This document shows positions 41,893 to 63,292 of a DNA stretch of 64,000 nt, piece after piece (position 1 is the stretch's first letter; each line of letters begins with the position of its first letter). The translations under genes and the position numbers were made by a program. The notes under the pieces are model-generated. The model ran no database searches. It saw only the letters and a program-made list of their open reading frames with translations, and had not been told where the DNA came from. Location of the stretch: positions 1 to 64,000 of the forward strand of contig JAGVLO010000015.1 in assembly GCA_020049775.1 (NCBI GenBank), read 5' to 3'. Source of the stretch: Alphaproteobacteria bacterium. GTDB lineage: Bacteria; Pseudomonadota; Alphaproteobacteria; Rickettsiales; SXRF01.

Positions 41893-44800
41893 TTACTGGT
41901 TAGCGTTACAAGCGCCGCCAAAGACACCCTTAGCAAGGAAGTCATTGCCGCAATCCTGATAACCATCGCCACCCGCAGATGGGCTGAGGTTTGCCAGGTC
42001 ACCGGCGTTACCGCCTGCGGCCGGAGCCAGGTTGTTGAGTGCGCCCGGGCCACCAGTTGGCGGGTTGCCGCCTTGGCCAAGCATGCTCAGGTTAACATCA
42101 TTGATGTTAAAGTTCATCGGTGCGCGGCCCGATCCATTGAGGAGGAAGCCAGCGTAGGAGAACAGCGGGCCTTCAAACAGACCACTGCGATCCTGCAGGA
42201 ACTGGTTCAGCAGATCAATGTTGATACCATCCGGTGAGGTGTACAGAACCAGACCCAACGTGCCGTTATCCGGCAGGTGGCGGGTCTTCAGTTCTGCTGC
42301 GGCCAGCTGTTCATCGGTGAAGGTGTTTGCAACTACACCATCGAACGTCTGGAAGCGAGCGTCAAGGATGCGGCCGAACATCGCGCCGTTGGTCAGGTAG
42401 AAGTAGTAGTTCATACCCGTGAAGCTGCTGCCGTTACCAATGAACTGCATTTCAGTGTTGGTATCGTCAAAGCCGGTGCGACCGAGGAATACGCCGGTGA
42501 AGCCACCAGTGAAGGTAGTGTCGCCAACGAGAACGGTGGAACCGTTGTAAGCCCACAGATGCGTCCAGTTGTCGGTCAGTGCAACATTGCTGATTACTGT
42601 ATCAGTAGCGTTGTTCAGCCTTACACCAACCAGGTAGTCGAGGATTTCGCCACCAGTGATGGTGGTACCCTGTGTGTTGGTCATCAGCACACCAATATTG
42701 GAGCCTATTCCTACACCCGTGATAACGTTGGAAGCAAGCTGAGTATTATTGCTATTGGAAATGTTCACACCCCAGTAGTTACCGAACAGGTAGTTGTTGC
42801 TTACAACATTGTCGTTGCTGCCGTTGGACAAGCGTATGCCGTTACCGTTGAAGTACAACTCGTTATCGTTAATGGTAGCCTGGCTGCCATTGAGGCTGAT
42901 GCCTGCGCCAAAACCAGTGACATAGTTGTTTTCAATCAGGTTGACGCCAGTGACGTTAATGAGCGAGATACCGTTGTCAGCAACGAATGGGAGGCCATAT
43001 ACGGAGTTTCCGGATACCAGTAAGTCGCTATTGGTAACAAGGATACCATCGCCGTTGGAAGCATAAACTTCATTGTTAGTGATGGAGACATCGTCACTCT
43101 CATCAACAAAGATGCCAGCCACACTCGAACCGAAGGTGTAGTTGTCGTCGATGAGCGCACCATCGCTGCCGTCAACTGCCGCGATGTTGGTATTGAAGAA
43201 GCCAACTTCGTTGCCGCTGATGGTAGCATCCTGAACGTTAGAGATGATAATGCCATAACCTAAGCCATCTGCATAAACATCGTTGTTTGTTACGGTGATT
43301 ACGCCGTCGCTATCGCTGATGTCGATACCGTTGCCGAATACGTCATAGATGTTGTTGTTATCTACGAGTATGTCGGTGCTGTCGCTTACGACAACGCCAT
43401 GGAATGGTTCATCGATTTCGTTTTCGGTGATGTCAACATTGCTGCTGCCTTCAACCAGAATGCTGAATTCATAGGTCTGGATGTAGTTGTTGCCAATGTT
43501 AGCATCGGTCACGTTATCGAGGCCGATACCGGTGTTGCTGTAGTCACCATAGATGTTGTTGTTGTTGATCTCCAGGTCTTCGCTGTCGTTGACCAGGATA
43601 CCGTTACTCTGAGCATAGAGCTGGTTGCCGTCCACGTCGATGTTGCGGCTGTTTGAAACAATCACACCATCTTCAACTTCTTCAACATAGTTGTTGGTGA
43701 CTTCGATATCGAACGAGGTCGGGTCAAGCGGGCTATCGCCTTCGCCGCCGAACGGTTCGCCGGATACTTCGATACCCGTGTAGAAGTCGTCGATGTAGTT
43801 GTCATCAACAATACCGCTGTTGCTATCGGTAACGCGGATGCCCGTGTTGCCTTCATCACCGTAAATATCGTTGTTGGTGATTTCGAAGGTGGTTACTTCA
43901 TCAAGGCTGATACCTACATCATAGATGTCAGAGAGGTTGTTGCTGTCGATGATGATGTTGCTTACTGGATCAACATCGATACCGATATTTACATTTTCAA
44001 TAGTGTTATCAGATACCGAGATATTTTCGGTGGTGAAGCCTTCATCCATCACGCCATAGACACCTACGCCGATGTTAAAGCTGTAGATTTCGTTGCCATC
44101 AATGGTGGAGTTGGTGCTGTCGTTCAGCAGAACGCCGTAGCTGCCCCAATCCCATGAATTGATGTAGTTGTTGTCAACGTTGATATTATCGCTGTCGGAA
44201 ACATTGACGCCAACATCAGAGATATCAACAATGTAATTGTTGGTAACGGTGACATATTCGCTGTCTGAAACAATCACGCCGGTGTCAATATCTGATACCG
44301 AGTTATCGTCAACATCAATATTGTTGCTGCCGGTTATATTTATGCCGGTGGTGCCAATATTGATCGAGTTGTCATAGACAGTGATTTGGCTGCTACCGGT
44401 TACATTGATGCCAGTGGCGAAGTCGTCAATGATGTTCTGGTCAACCATACCGTCTTCGCTGCTATCAATATTGATAGCGGTGTCAACTTCGTCGATTGTG
44501 TTCGCGGTTACATTGAACTCTTCGGTGTTTGTAACATTGATACCGGTGGTAGCATCTTCAATATTGTTGTTGCTGATGCCAACCAGAGATGAGGAACCAA
44601 CGTTGATGCCGGTGGTAACTTCATCAATTTCGTTGCCTTCGATGCCGATATCTTCGCCATTTGTTACGTTGATGCCGGTGGTAGCGTTCGTAATGACGTT
44701 TGTGGCGATATACAACATGTCGGAATTGTCAACATTGATACCGGTCACCGAATTGGTGATGTCATTGCTTTCTACAACGCCATCTACACTATCGTTGATA

Positions 44801-47800
44801 TTCACACCGTTTGTGACTTCATCAATTCCGTTATCAACGATATCGAAATCTTCGCTATTCTGTACGTTGATACCGTTGGTGCTGTCATTGATAGTGTTGT
44901 TATTGACAGTGAACAATTCGCCGTCGGTCACGAGAACGCCATTATCAACCGCCACGTCAATGTTATTACCGTTGATGTGGAAATCGTAAGAATTGGTTAC
45001 GAACACACCGGTGAGGCTGTTGTTGATAGTGTTGCCGTTTACATTGAACAGTTCGCTATCTGAAACGCTGACGCCAGTGTCAACATCTTCAATCGTGTTG
45101 TTGTTGACCTGGAAGTCATAACCAGTGTCAACATTAACGCCGGTTACAGCGTCGGTGATATCGTTGCTGTTAACATCGAATGACCCACTGTCGGTTACGT
45201 TGATACCGGTGGTGGTCTCTTCAACAATATTATCGTTCACGTAGAAGTCTTCACTGTTGTTCACGTTGATACCGGTTACGGCATCGATAACAGTGTTGTT
45301 GATTACGTTGAACGTATCGCTTTCGCCGATATTGATGCCGGTGGTGGCATTATCAACGCTGTTTCCATCCACGCCAAATTCAAAGCTGTTGAAAATGTTG
45401 ATGCCGTTTTCTTCAGCGGTATCCACAATGTTGGTGTTTACACCAAAGAAGCTGGAGTTGAGGATGTTGATACCGTTTGTAGAAAGCGTGATATCGTTGT
45501 TGGTGATATCGAAATCCGTGCTGGACACAACATTGATACCAGTGGTGGTGCTGGTGATGGTGTTGTTATCGACCCCGAAGAGTTCACCATCAACAATATT
45601 GATGCCAGTGTTGGCTTCTTCAATGTCGTTGTTGTCTATATCGAAGTCATAGCTGTCGGTAACATTGATACCGGTGGTGGTGTTATCAATGGTATTGCCG
45701 CTAGCATCAAACAGTTCGCTTTCATCAACATTGATGCCAGTGGCGGCGTTCTCAATGGTGTTGGAATTAACTAGGAAGTTGTAGCCGTCAAAGACATTGA
45801 TGGCCGTGCCGGTGATGTTGGTCACTTCGTTACTATTTACGGTAAAGTCTTCACTTTCGGTAACGTTGATGCCGGTGTCGGCGACGTCAACATCGTTGCT
45901 ACCAACGCTGAAATCTTGCGAGAAGTAAACGTTGATACCGGTGCCGGTATTGGTAACGATGTTGTTGTCAGCATCGAAGAATGAGCTTTCCTCTACGTTG
46001 ATACCGGTCGTTGCTTCATCAACTTCGTTGTTGTTCACGGTGAAGTCGGTGGACAGGTAAACGTTGATACCAGTGGTGCTGTTGGTCACGCTGTTGTAGT
46101 CAACGTTGAAAGTAGCACTTTCCTGAACGTTGATACCAGTGTCAAAACCGTCAACCGTGTTACCGTTGCCAAGGCTGCCGATGGTAGCGTTGGAGGATTG
46201 GTACATGTAGATACCGTTGCTTGCGCCACCTGCGTCAGCGGTGATGCTGTTGCCGGTTACAGTGATGCCAACCACGTCATCGATATAGATACCATCCGAG
46301 GTAATGTCGGTCAGGGTGTTGTTCGATACGATGTTGTTGTCGCTGTTGGTGACATAGATACCGGTGGTGCTGTTATCGATCAGGTTGCCATCGACAAGGT
46401 TGAGGTCGCTGGTGTTGACGAGGCTGATACCTGTGGTGTTGTTGTACAGGAAGTTGCCCGTAACATCAGCCTGGCTGTCATCAAGATGGATACCGGTAGC
46501 AAAATCATTCACCGTATTGGTGTTGATAGTGTTGCCGATGCCGAACACGCCATCCAGCAGGATACCGGTGCCGGTGCCTAAGGTGGCAGCGGTGATATCG
46601 TTGCCGCTGACCACGAGATCGCTGTCAACTACATGTACACCTGCGAAGTCGATTTCAGTCAGTGTGTTGTCAGAAATCGTAGCGTAGTCGCTGAGTTCCA
46701 CATACACGCCGGTGTAGCTGTTATCGATGATGTTGTTGGTAACAAACACGTTATCGCTGTTGCTGTAGAGGCTCACACCCGTGGTGAAGTCAGTGATGGT
46801 GTTGTTATCAATGGTGGAGTTAGTGGTTTCGGACAGGTACACGCCGGTTGCGCCTGAATCAGGTGCAGCAGAGGTGATGCTGTTGCCAGCAACATAGATA
46901 TCATCGCTGAAGGTCGAGCTTACACCTGTCAGGTAGATACTGGTCAGGGTGTTATCTTCCACATTTACATCTGAGCTGTTGGAGATAACCACGCCATAGT
47001 CAGCATCATCGATGATGTTGTTGGAAGCGGTGATTGCAGTGCTGTTGCCAACGTTGATGCCTGTGGTGGTGTCGGTTACGTTGTTTGCATCAACCAGAAT
47101 ATCATCGCTGTAAGTTACAGTGATGCCGGTGGTCGCAGTCTCAACGTCGTTCTCATCAACGGTGCCTTCTTCACTGTAGCTGATGTCGATGCCGTTGGTC
47201 GTGTTGGTTACGCCGTTGCCGGTTACGTTGAAAAATTCAGCTTCGGTGACATAGATACCATAAGTGGCAACATCAACCGTGTTGTCGGTGATATCGAAGT
47301 CAGAAGCGTAACCAACGCCGATGCCAGCATAGCTGTTGGTGACGGTGTTGTTGTTGATGCTGAAGTTCTCGCTGAAAATAGCGCCGGCGCCAACATATGT
47401 ATCATCAATAGTGTTGCCGGTGATTTCGAAATCATCAGAGTCAGCAGCGCCGATACCAATCATGGTGTCGGTCACTTCGTTATTCTGGACGATAAAGTCA
47501 TAGCTGCTTACGGCGATGATGCCGCCGGTGCCATGGGTATCAACCGTGTTGCTGTCGATATTGAAGTTGTTGCTGTTGTCGAAGGCAATACCGAACTGGC
47601 CGTTGTCATGAACGTTGTTAAAGCCAACATAAACATCGTTAGATGAAGAAATCGTCATACCGTTGGTAAAGCCGGTCACTTCGTTGCCATCGCCATCTGC
47701 GCCGATTTCAGCGTCGCTGAAGGAACTCAGGGCGATACCGTCAGAACCAAGGTTGCCGGTCACGCTGTTGTTAAGGATGGTGGCGGTGGTGCCGGAAACC

Positions 47801-50800
47801 AGAGAAATGCCGTCATTGGTGATTCCGCTGATGGTGTTGTCGGTAATTTCAAGTTCATTGCTGTTGTTGCTTATCACGCCGTTTGTAGCGGTGGTGATGG
47901 TGTTGTTGGTGACAAACACGCCGGTGGTGTCGTTGATGCTGACACCGCTACCGCTGACAGTAGTCATGGTGTTGTTGTCAATGGTTGCATTGTTGCTGCC
48001 GTTGTGCAGTTCAACGCCATTTCCAACATTGGTCAGGATGTTGTTGTTGATATCAACATTGGTAGCGCCGTCGCCGATAATGCCGGGACCCGCGATATTG
48101 CTGATGGTGTTTTCAGTAACAGTTACTGCGTCGCTGTCATCAACGCTTACGCCAACGTTGCCGCCGGTGATGTCGTTTTCATCAACGAGGACGTTGTTGC
48201 TGCCGTTTTCAACACTGATACCGACCGTGTTGTTGGTAACGGTGTTGTCGAAAATGGTGCCGCTGCTTGCGTCGAAGGTAATACCATAGTGGAAGCCGTC
48301 CACATCATTGTTCTCAACCAGGCTGCTGATAGCCGAGTTACCAACAAAGATACCAACGCCTGAACCTGCGAGGCCAGAGGTTACGGTGTTGTCGTTGATG
48401 ACGGTGTTATCACCGAAGTTAACGTAGATACCGTTGCCGCCGGTAACAGAGGTGCTAACCGTGTTATCGGTTACTGTGTTGCCGGTGCTGTTTTCGATGA
48501 AGATACCATTGACGCTTGCGCCTGCCACCGAGTTATCGGTGATCTGGTTGTCATCGCTGCCGTTAGTCACCAGGATACCGCTTTCAACAGTAGTAATGGT
48601 GTTGTTGGTAACATCTGCGCTGCTTGCATCGAGCGAGATACCGTTTTCGAAGATGCTTACATCGTTGTTGTCAACGAGGTTGCCGCTGCCGAATACGCCA
48701 ACGAGCGAGATACCGGTGCCGGTGCCAACGCCGCTGATGGTGTTGTTCTGGATCAGCAGGTCGCTGTCAACAATCTGGATACCATAACCGTTTACGCCGG
48801 AGATGTTGTTGTTAGTGATGCTCAGGTCATCGCTGAGGTACGCATACACGCCAGTGCCGCCGCCAGTAATGGTGTTCTGGTCAACGAGGCTGTCATCGCT
48901 TTCGGTGAGGCTGACGCCGGTGTTGTTGTTGGTCATGGTGTTGAGGACGATGGAACCAACGGTATTATCGAGTGCGATACCGATGTTGAAGTTGCTCACG
49001 GTGTTGGTGCCGCTGGCAAAGCCATTGCCCACGGTGGTGGTGCCGGTGCCGTCAACAACCAGTATGCCGGTGCCGGTGTTGCCCAGTGCGCCGCTTACGT
49101 TGTTTGCGGTGAAGGCGTTGTTTTCGCCGCCGGAGAGTACGATACCGTCATTCAGGATACCGGTGAGCGTGTTCTTCTTAACATGCATGTTGTCGGTGTT
49201 GGTGACAACGATACCATCGTAGAAGTCGCTGACAGTGTTTACGCCGAGCAGTGTGCCGTCGCCAATCTGGTTAACGCCGAGGCCATCGGTGATGATGATA
49301 CCGGTGCCGGTGCTGCTGGCTGCAGCATCAATGCTGTTGCCGAGAATGGTCACGCTGTCGCTGTTGGTAACGATGATGCCGTCGCCGGTCATGTCGGTCA
49401 GGGTGTTGCGGTAAACGCTGGTCACACTGAGGGTAAGGTCTTGCAGGGCGATACCATCCATGAATTCGCTGATGATGTTGCCGCCGAGGAGCGTGCCGTC
49501 ACCTACGTTGTTCACACCGGTGGTGCCGATGTACTTGATGGCCGTGCCGTTATTCACGCCAACGAGACCGTCGATTTCGTTACCGACGATGGTTACGCTG
49601 TCGCCACCGTTGACTACGATGCCGTCGCCTTCAAGATCGGTGAAGGTGTTGCTGGAGATGGTGGTGCTGTTAGCGTTGTTCAGCACGAGGCCCGAGCCGG
49701 TGCCGCCAATGATGGTGTTGTTGGAAACGGTAGCGGATGCGCCGTTCTGCAGCACGATGCCGTTGGTGTTGTTGGTCAGGGTGTTGCCATCCACCAGAAT
49801 ACCGGTGCTGCCATCAACAAGGATGCCGTTTTCGAAGTCGGAAACATCGTTATTGGTAACATCAGCGCCGTTGCTGCCGTTGATGATGGAGATGCCGTTA
49901 CCCACGCCTGCTACGCCTGCAGTCACCACGTTGTTGTCGATGGTGCCGTTGGTGCTGCCATCATAGACGATGCCGTCGGTCACGCCGGTGATGTTGCTGT
50001 TGAGTACGGAGTTGTTGTTGCCGCCGAGTACTTCGATACCGGTGACGCCGCCAACGATGATTGCGCCGTCAATCACCACGTTGGAACTCGGGTTAACGAG
50101 AATGCCGGTGGTGTTGTTGGTCAGGGTGTTGTTGCCATAGTAGGTGCCATTGCTGCCGCTGTTGTGGATACCAATATCGTAATCAGCAACAATGTTGTCG
50201 GAGATATTGTTATTCACGGTGCCGCTTTGCAGCAGGATACCCTTGCCGGCATTTGCAACGCCGGTCAGGTCGTTGTTGGTAATGGTGGTGTTGTTAACGC
50301 CAACCGCATTGATACCATTGGTTGCGCCGGTAACGGTGTTTGCATCAATGGTGTTGAAGTGGCTGGTTACGTTGATTGCAGTAGTGCCGCCGTCAATTTC
50401 GTTGTTGCTGACGGTTGCGCCGCCGGTGCCGATGAGGCTGATGCCGGTCGTGTTATTGGTCAGAACGTTGTTATTGATTAAAGCTGCAACTGCGTTGCGG
50501 ATACCGGTGAGGAAGCCGCTGATAGTGTTCTGACCAGCCGGAGTGCCGTCACCGATGTTAATGCCTGTGCCGCTTACAACATCAATACCGATGCCTGCGC
50601 CGGTGCCGGTAACGGTGTTATCAACTACGGAAGCGTTGTTAGCGCTGGTCAGCGAGATACCGGTAGCTGCACCAGTGATGGTGTTACCGCTCAGCGTGTT
50701 GCTTGGTGCGTTATTCACGTTGATGCCGGTGGTACCGCCGGTGATGATGTTACCGTCGATAACGTTATTGACGCTGGAACCTGTAACACTAATGCCGGTG

Positions 50801-53800
50801 GTGTTAGCCGTAGTGCCGCCTAGCGTGTTGTTGCTGACGGTGTTGGTGCTGGAAGAGCCGATGATGCCGACACCAACAGAGTAGTTGTCGATGGTGTTGC
50901 TATCGACCAATGCGCCAATGGTTGCGCCAGTCAAGGTTACGGCTGTGCTGCCACCAGTGAAAATGTTGTTGGAAACGGTAGCGTCGCTGCCGCCGCTGAT
51001 CTGAACGCCGGTGCTGGAACCGCCGATGGTGTTGCCATCGATAAGCGCGTTGTTGCTGGCGTTCACGTTAATGCTGGTGGTGCCGCCGGTGAAGGTGCTG
51101 TTGGTAACAGACGAATCATGGCTGTTGCTAACGAAAGACACGCCTGCGGTGGTGTTGTTGGTCAGGGTGCTGCTGCTGATATCAAGCTGGCTGGTGGTAG
51201 CGCGGATACCGGTAGCCGTGTTGACAACGGTTACGCCGGATACATCACCCGAGGCGGTGTTGTAGCCGATACCTACAACGTTGCTGAAGCCGTTGCCGCT
51301 AACCTGCAGGTTGGAAACGTCTGCGTTGCTGCCGGTTACGTTGATAACGGTGTTGTTGTTAGCCTGCGCGTTGATGATGGTGGTCGCGCCTTGGCCGGTG
51401 AGAGTGAAGTTGGATTCGTTGAGTGCAACGAGCTGGTTGAAGGTACCCGCACGCAGCGCGAGGGTTGCTTCATCATGTGTGCCTACAGCGTTAATGGCGG
51501 TCTGGATGCTTCCGCCGGTGCTTTGGAACAGGTTGACGATATGGCCGGAGAGCGAGTTTGCGCTGCCGCTGAATACGTCAAGGTTATTGATTTGCAGTGT
51601 ACCTGCAGCGGCGTCTGCACTGATGGCGCTACCATCGGTTACAGTTACGTCATCAGCATTGATGGTGGTGTCGAAACCGGTGATGGAAGAGCCGTCATCG
51701 AGGATAACGTCATCGCCTGCAGTGACGGTGGTGGTGCCTGCGGCATCACCGATTGCGCTGCCGTCATCGAGAAGTACGTCGCCACCGGCGGTAACGCTGG
51801 CGCTGGTGCTGCCGGTAATGCTGGAAATATTGTCATTATCAAGATCAACATCACCCAGTGTAGCGGTTATGCTTACAACCGCGCCGTCAATGGAGCTGCC
51901 ATCGATGATCATGGTGCCGCTGCTTGCGGTGATGGAAATGTCGCCACCAGTGAACATATCAGAATCGTGCATGTCGAAGTCGGCAGCGGAAACAACGATA
52001 TTGCCGGTGGTCGAATCAACGGTTGCGTTTCCTGAACCTTGGTCATCAAGATTGACGCGGTCAGTAGCGGTCAGGGTAATCAGGCCGGTGCCGGTAGTGA
52101 CCCTGCCATCGTTACCGTTAGCAATGATGTTGATGTCCTCAGAGGAGAGCGTGATAGAACCGTTGGCGCTGGATACAGTACGGCTGTTGATATCGATATT
52201 ATCACCCGCTTGCATGGTGATACCGCCTTGGCCGGCGGTGCCGGAGGTGCCGGTGACGTTGGCGTTAACAATGATGTCATCAAGCGCGATGAGGGTCAGG
52301 TTACCTGCGCCGCTCCATGACAGGTTGTTGCTGATAGTGATATCGCCATCATGGCTAGGGTTAAAGCCAGCGGTAGCGGTGTCGATGGTGACGTTAGCTG
52401 CGTTAAGCTGTCCCTGAAGGGTGGTTACGTTGATGTGGTTTGGGCCGCCTGCTGCGTTGCTGATGGTCCAGTTACCCGGATCGAGCAGCAATTCGCCAAG
52501 GCCGTCAGTGCCGTAGGCATTGGTGAAGCCTGCATAGGTGAGTTCATTAGCGGAGGAAACTTCTGCGAAGCCGCCCACGCCGTCATTGTTGCTGACGTTG
52601 ATGGTGCCTTCGAATACGGTGGAGTTGTCGCTCCATACCACTACGTCACCGGCCAGACCGCTCTGGGTGCTGGCGTCGATAACGCTTGCGGAATCAATAG
52701 TTACGTTAGCAGCGCGCGCCATGGCGCCCTGACCTTTATGGTCGCCGCCGATGCGTACTTTGCCGCCACCTGCGTTACCGCTGGCGTCAACAGTTGCGGA
52801 AGCGAGTGCAATATCACCCTTGGTTTCAACGGTGATCGAGCCGCCCTTCGCGCCCGCGCCCTTGCCGGATGCATCGATGGTGCCAGCAACGGTAATGTCG
52901 CCTTCGCCGCCATTAAGAACGATAACGCCGCCGTTAACGGTTGCAGAAGAAGCATCAATGATGCCGGTGGTGTTGATCGCCTTGTCAACTACGTCTTTAG
53001 CTGCATTGGCGGTCATGAAAATCTGGCCACCCTTGGCGGTGATGGAGCCGGTGTTTTCGATAGCGGCATTCATGTCGTTGCCGTTTTCGTCTTTGGCTTT
53101 CTGTGAAGCTTGCTGGGTGATCTGGAAGCTGTAGAGGTTGTCACCATACATATCTACGGTGAAGGCTTCACCCGCGCCGATGGCAATGGTGCCGCCGTTT
53201 GCAACGATAACGCCGTCGTTCTTCACGCCAGCGCCTACGAGGGCAACGAGACCGCCTTCTTTAGCGGTGATAGTGCCTTTGTTGATGATAGCGGCAGACT
53301 TGTTGGCGCTTGCAGCGTCAAAGTTGTAGTTGCCAGCGTTGAAATTAGCGTCGCTGATATCAGCGGTAGAAAGAACCAGGCTACCTGCGTTGATAGAGCC
53401 AGAATTGCCAACCAGCACCCCGTTCGGGTTGACAACCATAAGTGTAGCATCAGCAGTGAGGCGGCCGTGAATGTTGCTCGTCGGACCGTTAACGCGAACC
53501 AGCATGACATCCCCTGCACTCTGGTTAATGCGCCACAGTTCATCTGCCGCGATATCGATATAGTTAGTGAGCAGCGCGGTTTTTTGCGCGTGCTGATCGG
53601 TTACAACCGTCTTCGGGTCCAGCTGGTAGGACGTTGCGGAACCGGAGGTCACAATAAGATTATTGGGATCCGGATTTGCAAACGCGTCGCGCGTGCTGCC
53701 AAAGCCAGCCATAAACATGGCCATGCCGGCTACAACGTATGCGCGAGAATTGAGTGCGGAGCTGGTATAGAGGGAAGAACGGTTCTGTTTCATAATATGT

Positions 53801-53922
53801 CTCTTACGTTTGGGATGAATTTCGTAAACTGCTGTATTGTATGAATTGTTTGTTAGTTGCTCACCTGTTGCTCCAAAAAGATTATTTTTGAAGGAACTCT
53901 TGGTTAACTGCTTCTTAATCAT
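41893..53922 (-). CDS. Giant two-partner-secretion exoprotein (TpsA), about 4009 residues
   Basis: The protein begins with a signal peptide inside residues 1-83; the hydrophobic core and cleavage site TRDAFA sit near 66-83. The TPS haemagglutination-type domain follows, with VVNPNGVLVGNSG near residues 163-175. Residues from about 840 to 3830 are right-handed beta-helix repeats of about 22 residues (consensus TTGINVxxSxxFxVxxNxI), of the NosD/PbH1 kind. The C-terminal tail (about 3958-4009) is Gly/Pro/Ala-rich, holds PAAG at 3967-3970 and ends with Cys3991 and Cys4005, the only cysteines I see. The start at 53922 has AAGGG; the ATG at 53793 is an alternative that leaves a 39-residue signal. 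It should be secreted by TpsB and stay at the surface. Confidence 0.93.
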   Translation of the reverse strand: MIKKQLTKSSFKNNLFGATGEQLTNNSYNTAVYEIHPKRKRHIMKQNRSSLYTSSALNSRAYVVAGMAMFMAGFGSTRDAFANPDPNNLIVTSGSATSYQLDPKTVVTDQHAQKTALLTNYIDIAADELWRINQSAGDVMLVRVNGPTSNIHGRLTADATLMVVNPNGVLVGNSGSINAGSLVLSTADISDANFNAGNYNFDAASANKSAAIINKGTITAKEGGLVALVGAGVKNDGVIVANGGTIAIGAGEAFTVDMYGDNLYSFQITQQASQKAKDENGNDMNAAIENTGSITAKGGQIFMTANAAKDVVDKAINTTGIIDASSATVNGGVIVLNGGEGDITVAGTIDASGKGAGAKGGSITVETKGDIALASATVDASGNAGGGKVRIGGDHKGQGAMARAANVTIDSASVIDASTQSGLAGDVVVWSDNSTVFEGTINVSNNDGVGGFAEVSSANELTYAGFTNAYGTDGLGELLLDPGNWTISNAAGGPNHINVTTLQGQLNAANVTIDTATAGFNPSHDGDITISNNLSWSGAGNLTLIALDDIIVNANVTGTSGTAGQGGITMQAGDNIDINSRTVSSANGSITLSSEDINIIANGNDGRVTTGTGLITLTATDRVNLDDQGSGNATVDSTTGNIVVSAADFDMHDSDMFTGGDISITASSGTMIIDGSSIDGAVVSITATLGDVDLDNDNISSITGSTSASVTAGGDVLLDDGSAIGDAAGTTTVTAGDDVILDDGSSITGFDTTINADDVTVTDGSAISADAAAGTLQINNLDVFSGSANSLSGHIVNLFQSTGGSIQTAINAVGTHDEATLALRAGTFNQLVALNESNFTLTGQGATTIINAQANNNTVINVTGSNADVSNLQVSGNGFSNVVGIGYNTASGDVSGVTVVNTATGIRATTSQLDISSSTLTNNTTAGVSFVSNSHDSSVTNSTFTGGTTSINVNASNNALIDGNTIGGSSTGVQISGGSDATVSNNIFTGGSTAVTLTGATIGALVDSNTIDNYSVGVGIIGSSSTNTVSNNTLGGTTANTTGISVTGSSVNNVIDGNIITGGTTGINVNNAPSNTLSGNTITGAATGISLTSANNASVVDNTVTGTGAGIGIDVVSGTGINIGDGTPAGQNTISGFLTGIRNAVAALINNNVLTNNTTGISLIGTGGATVSNNEIDGGTTAINVTSHFNTIDANTVTGATNGINAVGVNNTTITNNDLTGVANAGKGILLQSGTVNNNISDNIVADYDIGIHNSGSNGTYYGNNTLTNNTTGILVNPSSNVVIDGAIIVGGVTGIEVLGGNNNSVLNSNITGVTDGIVYDGSTNGTIDNNVVTAGVAGVGNGISIINGSNGADVTNNDVSDFENGILVDGSTGILVDGNTLTNNTNGIVLQNGASATVSNNTIIGGTGSGLVLNNANSTTISSNTFTDLEGDGIVVNGGDSVTIVGNEIDGLVGVNNGTAIKYIGTTGVNNVGDGTLLGGNIISEFMDGIALQDLTLSVTSVYRNTLTDMTGDGIIVTNSDSVTILGNSIDAAASSTGTGIIITDGLGVNQIGDGTLLGVNTVSDFYDGIVVTNTDNMHVKKNTLTGILNDGIVLSGGENNAFTANNVSGALGNTGTGILVVDGTGTTTVGNGFASGTNTVSNFNIGIALDNTVGSIVLNTMTNNNTGVSLTESDDSLVDQNTITGGGTGVYAYLSDDLSITNNNISGVNGYGIQIVDSDLLIQNNTISGVGTGTGISLVGVFGSGNLVDNNDVSIFENGISLDASSADVTNNTITTVESGILVTNGSDDNQITDNSVAGASVNGIFIENSTGNTVTDNTVSTSVTGGNGIYVNFGDNTVINDNTVTSGLAGSGVGIFVGNSAISSLVENNDVDGFHYGITFDASSGTIFDNTVTNNTVGISVENGSNNVLVDENDITGGNVGVSVDDSDAVTVTENTISNIAGPGIIGDGATNVDINNNILTNVGNGVELHNGSNNATIDNNTMTTVSGSGVSINDTTGVFVTNNTITTATNGVISNNSNELEITDNTISGITNDGISLVSGTTATILNNSVTGNLGSDGIALSSFSDAEIGADGDGNEVTGFTNGMTISSSNDVYVGFNNVHDNGQFGIAFDNSNNFNIDSNTVDTHGTGGIIAVSSYDFIVQNNEVTDTMIGIGAADSDDFEITGNTIDDTYVGAGAIFSENFSINNNTVTNSYAGIGVGYASDFDITDNTVDVATYGIYVTEAEFFNVTGNGVTNTTNGIDISYSEEGTVDENDVETATTGITVTYSDDILVDANNVTDTTTGINVGNSTAITASNNIIDDADYGVVISNSSDVNVEDNTLTSIYLTGVSSTFSDDIYVAGNSITSAAPDSGATGVYLSETTNSTIDNNTITDFTTGVSLYSNSDNVFVTNNIIDNSYTGVYVELSDYATISDNTLTEIDFAGVHVVDSDLVVSGNDITAATLGTGTGILLDGVFGIGNTINTNTVNDFATGIHLDDSQADVTGNFLYNNTTGISLVNTSDLNLVDGNLIDNSTTGIYVTNSDNNIVSNNTLTDITSDGIYIDDVVGITVTGNSITADAGGASNGIYMYQSSNATIGSLGNGNTVDGFDTGINVQESATFNVDYNSVTNSTTGINVYLSTDFTVNNNEVDEATTGINVEESSFFDADNNIVTNTGTGINVYFSQDFSVGSNDVDVADTGINVTESEDFTVNSNEVTNITGTAINVFDGYNFLVNSNTIENAATGINVDESELFDASGNTIDNTTTGINVTDSYDFDIDNNDIEEANTGINIVDGELFGVDNNTITSTTTGINVVSSTDFDITNNDITLSTNGINILNSSFFGVNTNIVDTAEENGINIFNSFEFGVDGNSVDNATTGINIGESDTFNVINNTVIDAVTGINVNNSEDFYVNDNIVEETTTGINVTDSGSFDVNSNDITDAVTGVNVDTGYDFQVNNNTIEDVDTGVSVSDSELFNVNGNTINNSLTGVFVTNSYDFHINGNNIDVAVDNGVLVTDGELFTVNNNTINDSTNGINVQNSEDFDIVDNGIDEVTNGVNINDSVDGVVESNDITNSVTGINVDNSDMLYIATNVITNATTGINVTNGEDIGIEGNEIDEVTTGINVGSSSLVGISNNNIEDATTGINVTNTEEFNVTANTIDEVDTAINIDSSEDGMVDQNIIDDFATGINVTGSSQITVYDNSINIGTTGINITGSNNIDVDDNSVSDIDTGVIVSDSEYVTVTNNYIVDISDVGVNVSDSDNINVDNNYINSWDWGSYGVLLNDSTNSTIDGNEIYSFNIGVGVYGVMDEGFTTENISVSDNTIENVNIGIDVDPVSNIIIDSNNLSDIYDVGISLDEVTTFEITNNDIYGDEGNTGIRVTDSNSGIVDDNYIDDFYTGIEVSGEPFGGEGDSPLDPTSFDIEVTNNYVEEVEDGVIVSNSRNIDVDGNQLYAQSNGILVNDSEDLEINNNNIYGDYSNTGIGLDNVTDANIGNNYIQTYEFSILVEGSSNVDITENEIDEPFHGVVVSDSTDILVDNNNIYDVFGNGIDISDSDGVITVTNNDVYADGLGYGIIISNVQDATISGNEVGFFNTNIAAVDGSDGALIDDNYTFGSSVAGIFVDESDDVSITNNEVYASNGDGILVTNSDLLVSGNSVYGLPFVADNGISLINVTGVNLIENNYVTGFGAGISLNGSQATINDNELYFNGNGIRLSNGSNDNVVSNNYLFGNYWGVNISNSNNTQLASNVITGVGIGSNIGVLMTNTQGTTITGGEILDYLVGVRLNNATDTVISNVALTDNWTHLWAYNGSTVLVGDTTFTGGFTGVFLGRTGFDDTNTEMQFIGNGSSFTGMNYYFYLTNGAMFGRILDARFQTFDGVVANTFTDEQLAAAELKTRHLPDNGTLGLVLYTSPDGINIDLLNQFLQDRSGLFEGPLFSYAGFLLNGSGRAPMNFNINDVNLSMLGQGGNPPTGGPGALNNLAPAAGGNAGDLANLSPSAGGDGYQDCGNDFLAKGVFGGACNANQ
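42013..42024 (-). other. Candidate LapG-type cleavage site P-A-A-G in the TpsA tail
   Basis: These bases encode Pro-Ala-Ala-Gly (residues 3967-3970), 20 residues before the first cysteine of the C-terminal pair. LapG-family proteases cleave between the two alanines of T/A/P-A-A-G/V sequences, and CdrA-type adhesins carry the site just before a C-terminal cysteine hook. A second similar stretch (SPSAGG, 3980-3985) has lost the second Ala. The assignment is by motif and position only. Confidence 0.5.
42430..51440 (-). repeat. Long array of about 66-bp coding repeats (beta-helix rungs)
   Basis: Some 9 kb of tpsA encode roughly 130 rungs of about 22 residues. The most regular stretch runs from about residue 2700 to 3150, where TGIN recurs at near-constant spacing. 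Asn ladders (NNN, NxN) mark the turns. The protein repeats are degenerate at DNA level, so the array is old rather than freshly expanded. Confidence 0.85.
53904..53918. promoter_or_regulatory. CtrA-like box near the tpsA start
   Basis: TTAA (53904-53907), 7 bases, TTAA (53915-53918), a full match to the alphaproteobacterial CtrA consensus TTAA-N7-TTAA. It lies in codons 2-7 if tpsA starts at 53922, or about 110 bases upstream if it starts at 53793. Chance matches are common in AT-rich stretches. Confidence 0.35.
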
Positions 53923-54012
53923 TTGGCAACCCTTTTTTCATACTTTTTTAACAAATGCGACAAATCAGGTGCTTAACTGACTATTGCAGCTAAGCTACTG
54001 ATCTAGATGATT

Positions 54013-55698
54013 TTAGTAACGGTATGATAAGTCAAAGAAGAAGCGCGGCGCGCCACCGTCTTGACCATATGCGGCAACTTTTCTTGTGGTTGGTAACGCA
54101 ATTTCAAAGCCACCGGAGAGAGGTTGTGATGCGTCAAAGCGAACACCAAGGCCGGTAGAGGCAAGCGCGGCAGTGGAACCTGGGCCAACTACAGTGCGTG
54201 ACCACACCTTACCCACGTCATAGAAACCATAGAGCTGGTAGCTTTCAAAGAAGCCAACATCTTCCATGCCACTAAATTGGAGTTCAGCACGTGCGGCCAC
54301 ACCGTCATCGCCGATAATTTCAGAAGTGTCATAAGCAGAACCGAAGTTCGGGCCGCCAACACCGAACTGTTCGGCGGAGAGCAACACATTGCCCGATTTC
54401 TGGCCCTGAGCAGCAACAAAGAGGTTGAATGGCCCTTCGATTGGCTGCAAGCGGCTTACATAAGCAGTGATTTTGCTAAAGTCCATGTCACCACGTGCGC
54501 GTGACTGCAACGCCGGACGGCCATAGCCATCCCACTTGAAACCGCGGGAAACTTCAGTTTCGATTTTGTTTACGGCAGCGAACTGGTCAACAAAGTCGTA
54601 GGCGGCACCTGTGCGCAGTACACGCAGTCTATCGCGGAACAGAGCAGTGTCGAGAGCGTCGGTCGAGGTGTTGCGCCAGTCAAACTTCACATGGCCAAAC
54701 AGGTTGGTTTCACGCGAGCGGATAAAGGGGTGGGAAACTGCTGCCGATAAGGTGGTATCCTTACCGACGATATCAAAATTCTTGAGGGTGTACCCTGGGT
54801 TGGTGCGTGTGCGGCCAGCAGAAAGCTGAAGCTTGGTACCTTCATCATCCAACTGGAATTCCTGAACAATCTGGCCATATTTCAATTCGTTTGTATTGTC
54901 AGCCGCAAACAGGCGGACCTGTGTGCGGTCATACATGCCCATTAGATTATTGAATGCGGTGGAGAAGCTGAACTCAACCGGACCGAGATAGCGTGTGCCA
55001 CGGTTATCCATGGTAGCGGTAACATCAACTGGCTTTTCTTCAATCTGAATCACGATGTCAGACGCACCGGAAACGCCCTGAGCCGGGCGGATTACAGCGT
55101 GTGCCTTTACACCTGGCAGATCTTCCATCAGGAGCAGGTAGCGCTCAAGCGTGGCGGAATCCAGCGGCTTGGCGCCGCGGATTTTCTCTGCGTACTGGGC
55201 AAGGCGGCTGGTTTCATCGCTCAGGCCTTCGATGGTCACTTGATTAACAAAACCTTCCACGATGCGGATTTTCAGCACGCCGTTACCAATGCGCTGTGGC
55301 GGGATTACGGCGCGGGACAGGATGTAGCCCGCGTTGCGGTACTTTGCGGTGATCTTGCCAGCGGCCTTGTTCAGGGTGCCGAGGTTAATCTTGGTGTTGA
55401 GGTATTCTTGGAACTCAGCGGTCAGTTCTTCGCTGGTGAAGCTGGTATTGCCCTCAAATGAGACGCCTTTGATGGTGAAGGTGGCACCTTCGGAGAGCTT
55501 CTTGTCCTTACCTTCGTCATCCGGCACGGTGATGATGGGCATACCACCTACTTCCGGACGGGCTTCCTGAATGCGCGTGCGCTCTGCCTGACGGCCTGTC
55601 TGGGCCGGGGCTGGGTTAGGAACCTGCGCCAGCACATCGCCGGAAACAAAGAGAAATGCGAGGGAAAGCGATAAGGGAAGTGTAAGTTGGCGTTTCAT
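54013..55698 (-). CDS. TpsB outer-membrane transporter (ShlB/FhaC/HecB family)
   Basis: This 561-residue protein has a signal peptide (1-24, DVLA|Q), a Pro-rich linker helix region (about 25-70), and a POTRA domain (about 72-148: FTIKGVSFEGNTSF, EYLNTKINLGTLN, YRNAGYILSRAVIPPQ). A second POTRA-like segment follows, then a 16-stranded barrel whose C-terminal strand ends FFFDLSYRY. FhaC-type motifs such as GQKSGNVLLSAEQFGVGG near residues 428-445 are visible. It should export the neighbouring TpsA across the outer membrane. The gap to the tpsA ATG is 90 bases. Confidence 0.94.
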   Translation of the reverse strand: MKRQLTLPLSLSLAFLFVSGDVLAQVPNPAPAQTGRQAERTRIQEARPEVGGMPIITVPDDEGKDKKLSEGATFTIKGVSFEGNTSFTSEELTAEFQEYLNTKINLGTLNKAAGKITAKYRNAGYILSRAVIPPQRIGNGVLKIRIVEGFVNQVTIEGLSDETSRLAQYAEKIRGAKPLDSATLERYLLLMEDLPGVKAHAVIRPAQGVSGASDIVIQIEEKPVDVTATMDNRGTRYLGPVEFSFSTAFNNLMGMYDRTQVRLFAADNTNELKYGQIVQEFQLDDEGTKLQLSAGRTRTNPGYTLKNFDIVGKDTTLSAAVSHPFIRSRETNLFGHVKFDWRNTSTDALDTALFRDRLRVLRTGAAYDFVDQFAAVNKIETEVSRGFKWDGYGRPALQSRARGDMDFSKITAYVSRLQPIEGPFNLFVAAQGQKSGNVLLSAEQFGVGGPNFGSAYDTSEIIGDDGVAARAELQFSGMEDVGFFESYQLYGFYDVGKVWSRTVVGPGSTAALASTGLGVRFDASQPLSGGFEIALPTTRKVAAYGQDGGAPRFFFDLSYRY

Positions 55699-55735
55699 GC
55701 GATGTTATTCCTATGACGCTAAATTGAGAAAAAAT

Positions 55736-55940: not shown

Positions 55941-55979
55941 GTAGTAACTCCGGCAGGGACCGAAGTTCTTCAGGGCATT

Positions 55980-56462: not shown

Positions 56463-56525
56463 ATAAACCTCCTAAATAAGCTAGGTCTGTTAAGTTGCCG
56501 GACCCGTTATGGCGTCCGGTAATAC
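56463..56525 (-). promoter_or_regulatory. Candidate RNA thermometer in the hsp20 leader
   Basis: In the minus-strand leader a GC hairpin CCGGAC...GTCCGG (56514-56519 with 56498-56503) is followed by a weaker one in which CCTA (56482-56485) pairs with TAGG (56471-56474). The second covers part of the Shine-Dalgarno AGGAGG (56468-56473). A stable upstream stem plus a weak stem over the ribosome site is the plan of ROSE-type thermometers found in front of alphaproteobacterial hsp20 genes. The exact ROSE consensus is not matched. Confidence 0.5.
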
Positions 56526-56570
56526 TAGATCTGGTGATGGTTTTTTGGATTTCAAGCCCCCTTAAAGCAC

Positions 56571-59526: not shown

Positions 59527-59529
59527 GCG

Positions 59530-60336
59530 ATGCAACAGAAAAACAAGGGAAGCGGATTTAATATCAATACGGCCATCTTGTTTGTGATTGTCGTCAGTAT
59601 TGGGCTTGTCCCCATATATCTTTCTAAAGGCAAATCCGTATTTCAAGACAAATCTGTGTCTGGCCAGCCACCTTCTACCTTATATTATACCACGGATAAG
59701 GGAACAAAAATTCACTACATAATGAAAGGTGAAGGCACTCCTGTATTGCTTATCCATGGTGCAAAATACACTGCCCGCACAAATTGGGTGGCATCAGGCA
59801 TTTTCCCGATGCTTGCAGAAAACTATAAGGTGATTGCACTTGACCTGTCTGGTTACGGAGAATCTGACAAACCGTCATCTGCGGAGGCGTATGGAATGCA
59901 GTGGGTAAACGATATTAAATCGCTTATGGCATCTCTGAACATACAGAAAGCACACATAGTTGGATATTCATTAGGCGGTATGGTGGCGATGAAGTTTATT
60001 TCGACGCACCCCGATTATATCATATCGGGTATTATTGGAGGTGCCGGCTGGCTTCAGCAGGGAAGTCGCATACAAACTGCATGGGACCGCATGAAAGATC
60101 CGCTATCCAGCGGGCCGGCAAAACTTGCTCTGACAGAGGAAGAAATTCGCGCAATAAAAAAACCTGTGACATTTATCGTGGGTAGCCGTGATAACGCGAA
60201 GCGGAGTTATATCGATCCCGTTTCTGCCATACGCACAGATTGGCCGTTAACGGTGATTGAAAATGCAGGCCACGGAAGTACAGTTACCAAGCAGGAATTT
60301 AAAGATGCGTTGGTAAAATGGCTAAGCAAGCATTAA
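59530..60336 (+). CDS. Membrane-anchored alpha/beta hydrolase
   Basis: This 268-residue protein has an N-terminal membrane helix (about residues 12-32), which probably places the enzyme domain in the periplasm. The alpha/beta hydrolase fold shows LLIHGAK (oxyanion strand, near 73-79), DLSGYGES, nucleophile Ser in GYSLGG near 146-151, acid Asp in GSRDN near 220-224, and base His in NAGHGS near 243-248. The substrate is unknown. It is 3 bases behind parC and more AT-rich. Confidence 0.88.
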   Translation: MQQKNKGSGFNINTAILFVIVVSIGLVPIYLSKGKSVFQDKSVSGQPPSTLYYTTDKGTKIHYIMKGEGTPVLLIHGAKYTARTNWVASGIFPMLAENYKVIALDLSGYGESDKPSSAEAYGMQWVNDIKSLMASLNIQKAHIVGYSLGGMVAMKFISTHPDYIISGIIGGAGWLQQGSRIQTAWDRMKDPLSSGPAKLALTEEEIRAIKKPVTFIVGSRDNAKRSYIDPVSAIRTDWPLTVIENAGHGSTVTKQEFKDALVKWLSKH

Positions 60337-60358
60337 GCCTAATATAGGGGCTTTTGCT
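60335..60358. terminator. Weak bidirectional terminator between convergent genes
   Basis: The arms AAGCC (60335-60339) and GGCTT (60349-60353) flank an A/T-rich loop and are followed by TTGCTTTTT. The stem is only five base pairs and overlaps the stops of both genes, so the call is weak. Confidence 0.4.
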
Positions 60359-62510
60359 TTTTCCTGAGTTCTGAAGTGCCAACCATCATTTGCGCCAGCC
60401 ATTCACGGCCGCTGTGGTTTTCCACATAATTAATCAGCGCGATCACAGTGCGGCGGTCAAAGGCCCTATCCGCATTATCCAGAAGCTGCTTGCTGGCATC
60501 ATCCACGGGAATCGCATCGCGCCAGGCGCGCGGACTTATCATGCCCACGAAGGCATTGGCCACGGCAATGATGCGTGCGGAGATAAGGATTGCTTCGTGC
60601 TTCAGTCCCAGCGGGCCTGCGCCGTCCCAGCGTTCTTGCCACTGGCGTAGCGTGTCCTCCACCGGTCCGTCGAAATAAATGCCATGCAACATATCAGCGG
60701 AAGCATTCATCGAGTCGCGGATAATTCCTTTTTCTTCTTCAGTGAGTTTATTTGTCTTGGTTAGCAGCTCTGTCGGAATTACGATTTTACCGATATTCAT
60801 AAGGTTTGCCGCGGTTTGCGTGGTTTCCACCATCACCTGATCCAGCGCCACGCTGATGGCTACTTCATATGCTACCTTGGAGACCAGCTTGGAGTGATTG
60901 GCAGAGAACGGATCGCGCTTATCAACCATGCTCACCAGCATTTCTACTAGCTGCCGGTTGGTTTCCATGCGCTGTTCCCGTTCGCGCACTACTTCTGTGA
61001 TGTCCTGATCTACCACCAGCACACCCGGGATTTTTTCAGGTAGCGATGGCACAGGTATATAGCGAAGCGGCACAAAAGCACTGCGCACTACGCGCTCGCC
61101 CTCGCCCGTTCCCGTGCGGTACATGTCGTAACCGACGGAGTTGTCCTCCAGCGCTTGTATGCACTGGCCGCCGATTTGCACGGAGCGGTCCCTGCCCACC
61201 ACATCTTCCAGTTGCCTGCTTCCGAGTGTGCCAGGCGTCATGTTGGCATCGACTGCGGCTTGCAGGTTGGCAAAGTGGATAGTGTTTTTAGTATCCACAA
61301 TCATGATGGATTCCGGTTGGTAATCTGTCACGAGTTGCAACAGCACTTCCTGCGCTTTTGCTTGCGCGGCAAGCCTGCGGAAATAACGCGACATAAAAAT
61401 GGCGCGCTTGGAATAAGCGTACCACCATATGGCAATGATGATCATGATGATGAAACCAATCATCAGGCAGAAGAACGTAATCATGCTGACGCGCCGGTCG
61501 TTGCCTGCTGAATAGGCCTCGGGCCGGTCGATCTTAACTACCATTATCCACGGGGTATTGATGACACTGCGCGAGGTCCCGAGTACCGGCTTGTCGCGGT
61601 AATCTTTCTGGTTGAACATAAAGTCACCAATATTTTGGACAAGCTTTGCCTCGGTATATTTATTGATGTCGAAAGCATTCTGTTTGCTAAGTGCGCTGGT
61701 GCCGTCGCTTAGTGGCGATAGATACTCAAGCTGGTTATTCGTTTTGCGCACCAGAATGGTTTCCAGTGTTTTTTCTGTTGTACCCGGGTGTTTCAGCAGG
61801 CTGAAAAAACTATCATCCAGTGCGGCGATGGCGACAATGCGCCCAATCTGGGATTCCGGTTTGCGGTCGCCCTGAATAGAATATACCGGTACGACAAAAC
61901 CGACATAAGGTTTACCGTCACTGCCCTTGAACATATCGATGAGGCGTTGCTGGCCTGCAGGCGTCTGTGCGGCTTGCGCCACCATGGAGTCGCGTGTTTC
62001 ATTATTCACAATGGTGGAGACCACCATCTCGTTTTTACTATTTAGGATGATGACGCCGCTGGTGCTTTCCGGAGTGACGTTGGCCGGTATGGCGGGCAGG
62101 TTATTGCGGACGATGAATCCTGCGCGCTCCGCCGAAAATATCAGGAGGTTGCGCAGGTAGCTGCGGGGGGCGGGTTCACTTTCCTCGACGAAACCGTTTT
62201 CACCTGTTGGTGCGGCGGACATCATCTGCAATTCGGTCATGTATATTTGTAGCGAAGGATTATCCGCCAGCAGGTGCAACTCTTTATATTTATCTGCTAC
62301 CCATTTATTGATATCGCTGGCACGACTTTCGGCAATCAGGGTCAGTTTTTCCTGCCACGCTTCCTGGTCACGCTTGAAGTCGATAGCAGTATAGCGGTTA
62401 ACAAGCCAGATGCCGGTAATGATAAGCGCAGTCACCAAAAGCGCAATGCCATAGAGCTTGGGTGCGAAGTTTGGATTATCGTGCGGGCTATGGATAGTGG
62501 ATTCAGACAT
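60339..62510 (-). CDS. Membrane sensor with degenerate HD-GYP domain
   Basis: This 723-residue protein has two membrane helices (about 17-37 and 348-370) with a large dCache-like periplasmic domain between, a cytosolic PAS-like domain (about 390-520), and a C-terminal HD-GYP fold (about 540-700). HD-GYP enzymes break down cyclic di-GMP, but here the key residues are changed: HD-x-GK reads MN-I-GK (Met571-Asn572), HHE reads QWQE, GYP reads AGP (631-633), and the later VAD reads VAN. It should be catalytically dead and could act as a ligand-responsive switch. ATG 62510 is chosen (GGAG upstream). The gene precedes the hydrolase convergently and follows the LapG-like gene on the same strand. Confidence 0.85.
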   Translation of the reverse strand: MSESTIHSPHDNPNFAPKLYGIALLVTALIITGIWLVNRYTAIDFKRDQEAWQEKLTLIAESRASDINKWVADKYKELHLLADNPSLQIYMTELQMMSAAPTGENGFVEESEPAPRSYLRNLLIFSAERAGFIVRNNLPAIPANVTPESTSGVIILNSKNEMVVSTIVNNETRDSMVAQAAQTPAGQQRLIDMFKGSDGKPYVGFVVPVYSIQGDRKPESQIGRIVAIAALDDSFFSLLKHPGTTEKTLETILVRKTNNQLEYLSPLSDGTSALSKQNAFDINKYTEAKLVQNIGDFMFNQKDYRDKPVLGTSRSVINTPWIMVVKIDRPEAYSAGNDRRVSMITFFCLMIGFIIMIIIAIWWYAYSKRAIFMSRYFRRLAAQAKAQEVLLQLVTDYQPESIMIVDTKNTIHFANLQAAVDANMTPGTLGSRQLEDVVGRDRSVQIGGQCIQALEDNSVGYDMYRTGTGEGERVVRSAFVPLRYIPVPSLPEKIPGVLVVDQDITEVVREREQRMETNRQLVEMLVSMVDKRDPFSANHSKLVSKVAYEVAISVALDQVMVETTQTAANLMNIGKIVIPTELLTKTNKLTEEEKGIIRDSMNASADMLHGIYFDGPVEDTLRQWQERWDGAGPLGLKHEAILISARIIAVANAFVGMISPRAWRDAIPVDDASKQLLDNADRAFDRRTVIALINYVENHSGREWLAQMMVGTSELRKKQKPLY

Positions 62511-62626
62511 GTTATTTTTTCTCCGGGGCCGATTCAGTACATGCGAACGCCGCATACAATAACACTATATATATAGAATGGAATACAAAATGACATTTGT
62601 TGTGTGTACCAAGAATGAAGAAAATA

Positions 62627-63292
62627 TTAATTCATTTTGGGGCGGTATGACCACCACGCATCTTCGTTAATGCCATAGACGGGGCGGTAGTGATAAATTT
62701 TCATGGCGGGCGTTACCTGCTTAATCTGGTTATCGAGTATGAAAAGTTCGCCGCCGTCATAGACACCTAGCACGGCGTGGATAATACCGCCGAGGTTCAG
62801 GTCCTGAAGAATGATAATACGCATCTTGTCTGCTGATACACCAAGTGCGCGCAGGGAATAATATTTTGAAATGGCGTAGTCCTCGCAGTCGCCGTTTATT
62901 TCCATAAATTCGTATGGGGTTTCCCAGTAATCTTCCAGACCCCAGTTCATCATATCTTCGATGTAGGGGTGTTCGTTCGACCAGCTGTTGACAATCTTCA
63001 ACTGCTCGCGCAGCGACTTTCCTTCTATGGATTCCAGTAAAGACCGCCAGTCTTTTACAGAGCATGGGTGAAATTTGGTTTTACCGCATTGACTATCGGG
63101 AACGCCTTTTTGCCTGTCATAGCGCAAGCGCATTCCGGTCCATTTGGTGAAGGGCGAGATATTGCCGGAGCGTGTTTCGCCCATGATAAAGTAGGAATTA
63201 TTGTTGGCGGCGGAAGCCTGTCCGGTACCAGCTAGCAGGTATAGCGGCGTGCATGATAACAGTAAAAAAAGTATCGACTGTAAGCTGCGCAT
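62627..63292 (-). CDS. LapG-like periplasmic cysteine protease (DUF920/BTLCP)
   Basis: This 221-residue protein has a signal peptide (1-29, ending ASA). The transglutaminase-like fold has the catalytic triad Cys136 in GDCEDYAISKYYSLRALG, His172 in IIHAVLGVY and Asp187 in ILDNQI. The GDCEDYA segment also matches the calcium-linked acidic site of LapG proteins. LapG releases giant adhesins from cells by cutting xAAG sites in the periplasm or at the surface. An extra N-terminal pair, CGKTKFHPC (69-77), may form a disulfide. It sits 116 bases upstream of the degenerate HD-GYP sensor gene, on the same strand. Confidence 0.88.
   Translation of the reverse strand: MRSLQSILFLLLSCTPLYLLAGTGQASAANNNSYFIMGETRSGNISPFTKWTGMRLRYDRQKGVPDSQCGKTKFHPCSVKDWRSLLESIEGKSLREQLKIVNSWSNEHPYIEDMMNWGLEDYWETPYEFMEINGDCEDYAISKYYSLRALGVSADKMRIIILQDLNLGGIIHAVLGVYDGGELFILDNQIKQVTPAMKIYHYRPVYGINEDAWWSYRPKMN

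Follow-up and report, generated by a model that had tools for sequence, protein, structure and literature searches.

We analyzed a stretch of 64,000 nucleotides (GenBank assembly GCA_020049775.1, contig JAGVLO010000015.1, positions 1 to 64,000), hereafter the window, from an alphaproteobacterium of the order Rickettsiales. It encodes a giant two-partner secretion (TPS) adhesin, TpsA, its transporter TpsB, and a LapG-like protease next to a membrane sensor. Our analyses make it probable that these genes constitute a switch for adhesin retention and release that is controlled by cyclic di-GMP (c-di-GMP), in which a regulator pair of the DvhD/DvhG type is combined with a CdrA-like TPS adhesin. 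Judged by analogy with the known systems, the bacterium probably detaches from surfaces when the periplasmic protease, which is restrained by a dead-enzyme c-di-GMP sensor, cuts the giant adhesin. The parts themselves, their homology, the missing catalytic HD and HH motifs alongside several retained c-di-GMP contacts, the absence of LapD, and the joint occurrence and linkage of sensor, protease and adhesin tail can be read directly from the genomes. The genes and sites concerned are as follows.

41893-53922, minus strand: TpsA adhesin, 4009 amino acids, with a TPS domain, Beta_helix/NosD repeats and a Gly/Pro/Ala tail
54013-55698, minus strand: TpsB outer-membrane transporter of the ShlB type, 561 amino acids (POTRA_2, 79 bits; ShlB, 78.5 bits)
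60339-62555, minus strand: DvhD-like sensor, 738 amino acids, with a putative dCache periplasmic domain, membrane helices, a PAS domain and a catalytically dead HD-GYP domain
62627-63292, minus strand: LapG-like periplasmic cysteine protease (Peptidase_C93), 221 amino acids, with C136, H172 and D187
42013-42024, minus strand: candidate protease site PAAG, TpsA residues 3967-3970, with the near-copy PSAGG at residues 3981-3985
41908-41952, minus strand: candidate terminal disulfide hook, Cys3991 to Cys4005, the sole cysteines of TpsA
41082-41864, minus strand: SapC-family protein directly downstream of tpsA, 260 amino acids (PF07277, 205 bits)

The sensor and the protease

The sensor and protease genes are direct neighbours, and the protease gene starts 6.9 kb upstream of tpsB. 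The original prediction, made from the window alone, had described a protease with this catalytic triad about 7 kb upstream of tpsB, adjacent to a membrane sensor that has lost its HD-GYP active site, and both descriptions hold.

Sequence and predicted fold both identify the sensor as a homologue of DvhD with dCache, PAS and dead HD-GYP domains. DvhD of Desulfovibrio (Nitratidesulfovibrio) vulgaris is a c-di-GMP receptor that controls the LapG-like protease DvhG (PMC13090378, and Karbelkar 2024 PNAS as cited there). It binds c-di-GMP with an affinity of about 0.1 uM and does not hydrolyse it (PMC13090378); its control of DvhG in a reconstituted system comes from an earlier study cited in the same paper. 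The original prediction knew of no described case in which a dead HD-GYP sensor takes over from LapD. This part of it falls, as DvhD is such a receptor acting for LapD, and DvhD is also the best PDB match of the window sensor by sequence and by fold.

The sequence matches in question are the DvhD entries 9rc0 (2.9e-35) and 9rbz (2.1e-32), with the active PmGH at 1.4e-11, and a profile of 24 sensors likewise ranks DvhD first in the PDB (2.6e-67 and 1.4e-54). An AlphaFold model of the sensor, calculated from 28 sequences (mean pLDDT 83.9, pTM 0.48), matches by fold first the PAS/HD-GYP part of DvhD and then its HD-GYP domain (9rc0, 9rbz); the periplasmic domain of DvhD, 9rc2, appears at rank 11 (E 1.6e-8, TMt 0.69, 11% identity). 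In Pfam, the HD_5 domain scores 99.8 bits (cut-off 27.2), the PAS_4 match stays below its cut-off, with the PAS region aligning with 9rc0, and the dCache_1 match is sub-threshold (21.9 bits, cut-off 45). No GGDEF or EAL domain was found in the sensor by Pfam.

The window sensor reads MN at the position of the HD motif and QW at that of the HH motif. We compared it with relatives from two sets, 262 genomes of the order and 367 of the class; the window genome is referred to as G000. The HD motif is replaced (by MN, LN or IN) in all 30 aligned sensors of the order, and it is also replaced in all 30 aligned loci of the class, two of which (from G000 and G023) belong to the order. The residues of DvhD that contact c-di-GMP were located in the order sensors, in DvhD numbering; one truncated sensor row does not reach the 3' columns. 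All 29 sensors that cover R650 and R653 retain both, P567 and L577 are kept in 29 of 30, and M646 is Met in 26 of 29. Lys or Arg occupies the position of K582 in 23 of 30 sensors, Arg that of K520 in 29 of 30, and W, Y, F or H that of Y652 in 29 of 29. The loss of HD and HH combined with several kept contacts favours the sensor being a receptor over an enzyme, and binding of c-di-GMP is predicted.

The domains dCache and PAS are common sensory domains. This fits an alternative in which the sensor controls the protease in response to an outside cue perceived through dCache and PAS, the dead HD-GYP domain being a scaffold and c-di-GMP not being the signal. The same alternative gains from three DvhD contacts that the order sensors do not keep, with Y621 absent, E668 variable and R569 replaced by Glu in 21 of 30, and these losses weigh against c-di-GMP as the signal. 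However, the retention of R650, R653, P567, L577 and M646 despite the lost metal ligands argues for a binding function, as does the behaviour of DvhD, the closest solved relative, which binds the nucleotide without hydrolysing it (PMC13090378), and we regard control by an outside cue as quite unlikely. It is highly improbable that the sensor is an active c-di-GMP phosphodiesterase whose gene adjoins that of the protease without direct regulation. The nearest NCBIfam model is indeed that of a c-di-GMP phosphodiesterase response regulator (NF053512), although its 90.8 bits do not come close to the cut-off of 400. The HD motif, however, is gone from every aligned sensor, and DvhD, which has lost comparable residues, showed no hydrolysis of c-di-GMP (PMC13090378). 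Dead HD-GYP receptors may get named c-di-GMP phosphodiesterases by similarity, which constitutes an annotation trap.

The protease matches PF06035, Peptidase_C93 (56.7 bits, cut-off 27), with C136, H172 and D187 in place, and its N-terminus, judged by eye, resembles a signal peptide. The closest PDB entries are the LapG proteins of Pseudomonas fluorescens (4u65, 1.6e-23) and Legionella pneumophila (4fgo, 1.9e-21). All 36 aligned relatives keep the triad, and the putative calcium ligands D135 and E137 are kept in 32 and 31 of them, respectively. The NCBIfam equivalog model of LapG, NF045674, gives 101.7 bits, which is below its cut-off of 320. By sequence, the protease is therefore classified as a member of the LapG family and not as an equivalog of gammaproteobacterial LapG, and the regulator pair as a whole as belonging with DvhD and DvhG. 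DvhG of D. vulgaris is membrane-anchored (PMC13090378), whereas the window protease looks secreted.

Four of the 36 LapG relatives (L046, L050, L058 and L066, from G157, G111, G117 and G021) read GNCKDYA instead of GDCEDYA, so that both presumed calcium-ligand positions flanking the catalytic Cys are altered together. These relatives may be calcium-independent.

The adhesin and its candidate cleavage site

TpsA starts with a TPS domain (TIGR01901, 46.6 bits, cut-off 29.1), and its body contains 22 Beta_helix and 23 NosD stretches according to Pfam, which showed no other repeat type. Its length, the PAAG sequence and the only two cysteines were all found as originally described, and thus both a C-terminal di-alanine site and a terminal Cys pair are present. 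CdrA is cut by LapG near its C-terminus, and its cysteines are thought to hook it in CdrB (PMC4694147, PMC11898600, PMC7616799). By this analogy, TpsA is taken to work like CdrA. We do not classify it as a CdrA orthologue because the MBG2-type repeat body of CdrA (PMC7616799) was not found in TpsA by Pfam, the body consisting of Beta_helix and NosD repeats instead.

The motif [TAP]AAG arises in 3.75% of shuffles of the window TpsA tail. A single window is therefore insufficient proof of the site, and its conservation was examined. Large genes adjoining TpsB homologues were inspected by script and by eye for [T/A/P]AAG in the last 130 residues, leaving out neighbours that by eye are not TpsA (G077, G103, G246) as well as genes truncated at the edge of a contig. 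Genomes with LapG yielded 11 complete TpsA tails with the motif (G000, G037, G138, G023, G085, G043, G068, G130, G024, G020 and G018), one tail without it (G084) and one with near-matches only (G031; TAGG and PAGG). The motif was not found in the six TpsA tails of genomes without LapG (G016, G057, G144, G047, G004 and G028). A 602-residue gene after TpsB in G012, which has the sensor and no LapG, also lacks it and falls outside these tail counts.

A profile of the tail, A2, was built from 12 tails, all from LapG genomes; the G084 gene, with LapG present and no motif, was excluded. It matches 23 of the 262 order genomes, 22 of which have LapG, and gives a single match in G000. The sole tail genome without LapG, G026, holds TpsB, SapC and a sensor fragment at a contig end. 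LapG is present in 10 of the 11 tail genomes that lie outside A2 (hypergeometric 4e-10, a value that is too small, being uncorrected for relatedness). One to four copies of [TAP]AAG occur in 21 of the 23 tails (exceptions G031 and G021) and the terminal Cys pair in 22 (exception G024). A frequent form of the tail consists of L..L.PAAGG, repeated, followed by CGN.FL..G and the last Cys. This conservation across the order supports the PAAG site as real, beyond chance, at the level of sequence. Its lack in close homologues had been named beforehand as a finding that would speak against a CdrA-like tail acting with a LapG-like protease; instead, this combination gains support.

Co-occurrence and linkage in the order and the class

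Peptidase_C93 is present in 39 of the 262 order genomes. Counted at E below 1e-80, the sensor is present in 32, of which 30 have LapG; four genomes with weaker matches, including the fragment of G026, are uncounted. Of the 30 genomes having both, 26 carry sensor and LapG as neighbours on the same contig, 15 in tandem and 11 in divergent orientation. A predicted frame lies between the two genes in G095, and contig ends block a judgement of linkage in G117 and G065. The LapD domain LapD_MoxY_N (PF16448) was detected in a single genome of the order, G151, and was not found in G000. The G151 protein (L076) directly adjoins the LapG of that genome, as if swapped for the DvhD-like sensor. With LapD beside LapG in G151 and the sensor beside LapG elsewhere, the dead HD-GYP receptor therefore occupies the place of LapD, as the original prediction had proposed when it called for this comparison. 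We also looked in G000 for a LapD with a LapG of its own, which would have counted against this proposal, and found neither LapD_MoxY_N nor a second Peptidase_C93. The seven GGDEF matches in G000 indicate that the c-di-GMP signal can be made.

Seven LapG genomes have neither the sensor nor LapD_MoxY_N (G018, G031, G020, G024, G039, G079 and G105; L077-L081, L198 and L199), and all except G039 and G105 have the tail. No obvious receptor was seen beside LapG in these seven, as judged from gene lengths and first residues, the neighbours not having been family-searched. G069, an eighth LapG genome without the sensor, has a divergent LapG-like frame.

In 11 order genomes from nine families, no more than about 8 kb separates TPS genes or the tail from LapG or the sensor; seven of these genomes have the sensor (G000, G037, G118, G068, G138, G008 and G026) and four have LapG only (G020, G024, G031 and G079). 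In G037, the genes for LapG, sensor, TpsB, TpsA and SapC are consecutive, with SapC at L060 16225-17001. SapC (PF07277) is found in 24 of the 262 genomes, 21 with LapG and 17 with the tail; in 13 of the 23 tail genomes its gene comes immediately after that of TpsA. SapC is a possible accessory part of the module; a literature search for SapC together with two-partner secretion returned no paper. Just past SapC, the window contains a gene for a methyl-accepting chemotaxis protein (39634-40902, minus strand), and further on one for a 664-residue protein (33415-35409, minus strand) judged by eye to be a multi-PAS histidine kinase.

In the class, the sensor profile matches 74 of the 367 genomes at E below 1e-40, many of the weak matches covering the HD-GYP part only; plasmid records contain no sensor relative at E 1e-20. 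LapG lies within the 1.5-kb flanks in 24 of the 30 best-match class loci; among the others, L239 runs into the end of its contig, and L243, L248, L252, L253 and L257 show no LapG. A tree of 77 HD-GYP domains sets 69 domains without HD apart from eight with intact HD (support 0.952 and 0.997). The 69 fall into an MN-type branch of 58 that includes the window sensor (support 0.899) and a DvhD branch of 11 (support 0.867), so that MN in the window sensor and SQ in DvhD mark sister branches. The tree is midpoint-rooted with a small outgroup, from which the short pieces L287 and L298 were dropped, and the branching is provisional. In the DvhD branch, DvhD and six of the ten others read SQ, and the remainder AQ, SG or AG.

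Sensors of this second kind were located at 13 places, ten by the tree and three by motif (L312, L314 and L315); 12 have LapG adjacent or in an overlapping open frame, and L309 has none. Both kinds of receptor, MN and SQ, each with its own LapG, occur within one locus in L312 (G600) and L314 (G428). TpsB was seen in only one of the 20 class loci mapped, that of G408 (L273), a genome outside the order in which SapC, LapG, sensor and TpsB lie close together and the TpsA frame is incomplete in the stretch examined. In G276 (L313), also outside the order, TpsB adjoins an MN-type sensor, with no LapG in the 12 kb examined. On balance, we lean towards the view that the MN branch, sister to the DvhD branch, commonly serves to regulate LapG in Alphaproteobacteria. 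Several lineages would use it to run a five-gene module of LapG, receptor, TpsB, TpsA and SapC that sets free a giant TPS adhesin at a single PAAGG site or at several, and some genomes would have both branches, each with its own LapG.

Several observations weigh against the switch proposed for the window. The TPS pair is separated from the sensor-protease pair by four unrelated genes, which according to Pfam encode Hsp20, RecO, an A-type subunit of DNA topoisomerase IV/gyrase and an alpha/beta hydrolase. The tail is missing from 17 of the 39 LapG genomes; LapG therefore has other substrates too, or fragmented assemblies kept the tail from being detected. No "DP" motif, which is part of the LapG consensus (PMC13090378), is seen before PAAG in TpsA. 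Six tail genomes have no full sensor, namely the five tail-bearing LapG genomes without the sensor listed above and G026 with its fragment. The sensor genomes G012 (99% complete) and G143 have no LapG, and sensor and LapG look unlinked in G157 and G048. The p-values are too small because the genomes are related. Finally, the structural match of the dCache domain is modest, and the pTM of the model is 0.48.

The first two of these points are also what one would expect if the sensor-protease pair were real and its main substrate in G000 were another surface protein, with TpsA merely co-resident and PAAG incidental. Candidates for such substrates are hinted at by weak matches, all below the curated cut-off, to the type I retention module NF033682 in nine of the 42 genomes scanned. 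However, this alternative sits poorly with a tail profile that is nearly limited to LapG genomes, with the uninterrupted five-gene row of G037, and with the absence of [TAP]AAG from the six tails of LapG-less genomes. Moreover, G000 itself has one tail match and no match to NF033682, the latter being a weak test, as none of the 42 genomes exceeded the cut-off. We consider another main substrate unlikely.

The proposed switch and its relation to known systems

The retention and release switch that we favour would operate as follows. TpsB would export TpsA with its N-terminus leading. A disulfide between the two C-terminal cysteines would create a knot that lodges in the pore of TpsB, so that the PAAG tail stays on the periplasmic side. 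As long as c-di-GMP in the cytoplasm is high, it would occupy the dead HD-GYP domain, and the sensor would relay this state via its PAS stalk and across the membrane to the dCache domain, which would then hold back the LapG-like protease. Once c-di-GMP drops, the protease would cut between both alanines of PAAG, the hook would be lost, TpsA would slip out and the cell would detach. We infer nucleotide binding, tail cleavage, disulfide formation and the direction of control by analogy with DvhD and CdrA.

The DvhD-DvhG system resembles that of the window in its dCache-PAS-dead HD-GYP receptor, the LapG-family protease next door, the lack of LapD and the [T/A/P]AAG site of the adhesin. In contrast, the Dvh adhesins are type I secreted and have an N-terminal retention domain (PMC13090378), whereas the window candidate is a TPS protein with a C-terminal site and a Cys pair. 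These adhesin features, a near-C-terminal site and terminal cysteines thought to hook in TpsB, are shared with the CdrA-CdrB/LapD-LapG system of Pseudomonas aeruginosa, as is a protease of the LapG family (PMC4694147, PMC11898600, PMC7616799). There, however, the receptor is LapD, with degenerate GGDEF-EAL domains, instead of a DvhD-like protein. The LapA-LapD-LapG system of P. fluorescens has the inside-out logic and the protease family in common with the window, but its adhesin is type I with an N-terminal retention module, and its EAL-based receptor has a different periplasmic fold (PMC13090378).

In the accessible portions of open papers (including PMC13090378, PMC4694147, PMC11898600, PMC7616799, PMC3032553 and PMC4359373), we found no pairing of a DvhD-type receptor with a TPS adhesin, and the novelty may lie in this combination of a Dvh-type regulator with a type Vb (TPS) adhesin instead of a type I adhesin. 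The MN branch was not found in this literature either. The word "Alphaproteobacteria" is absent from the text of PMC13090378, and Fig. 9b of that paper, which presents DvhDG by class, may already include Alphaproteobacteria.

With the MN-type sensors, the LapG homologues of many Alphaproteobacteria gain candidates for both their receptor and their signal, and the Dvh type of receptor would be able to pair with a type Vb adhesin. SapC is put forward as a possible accessory factor, and the question of surface release in these bacteria becomes directly testable with four cloned parts.

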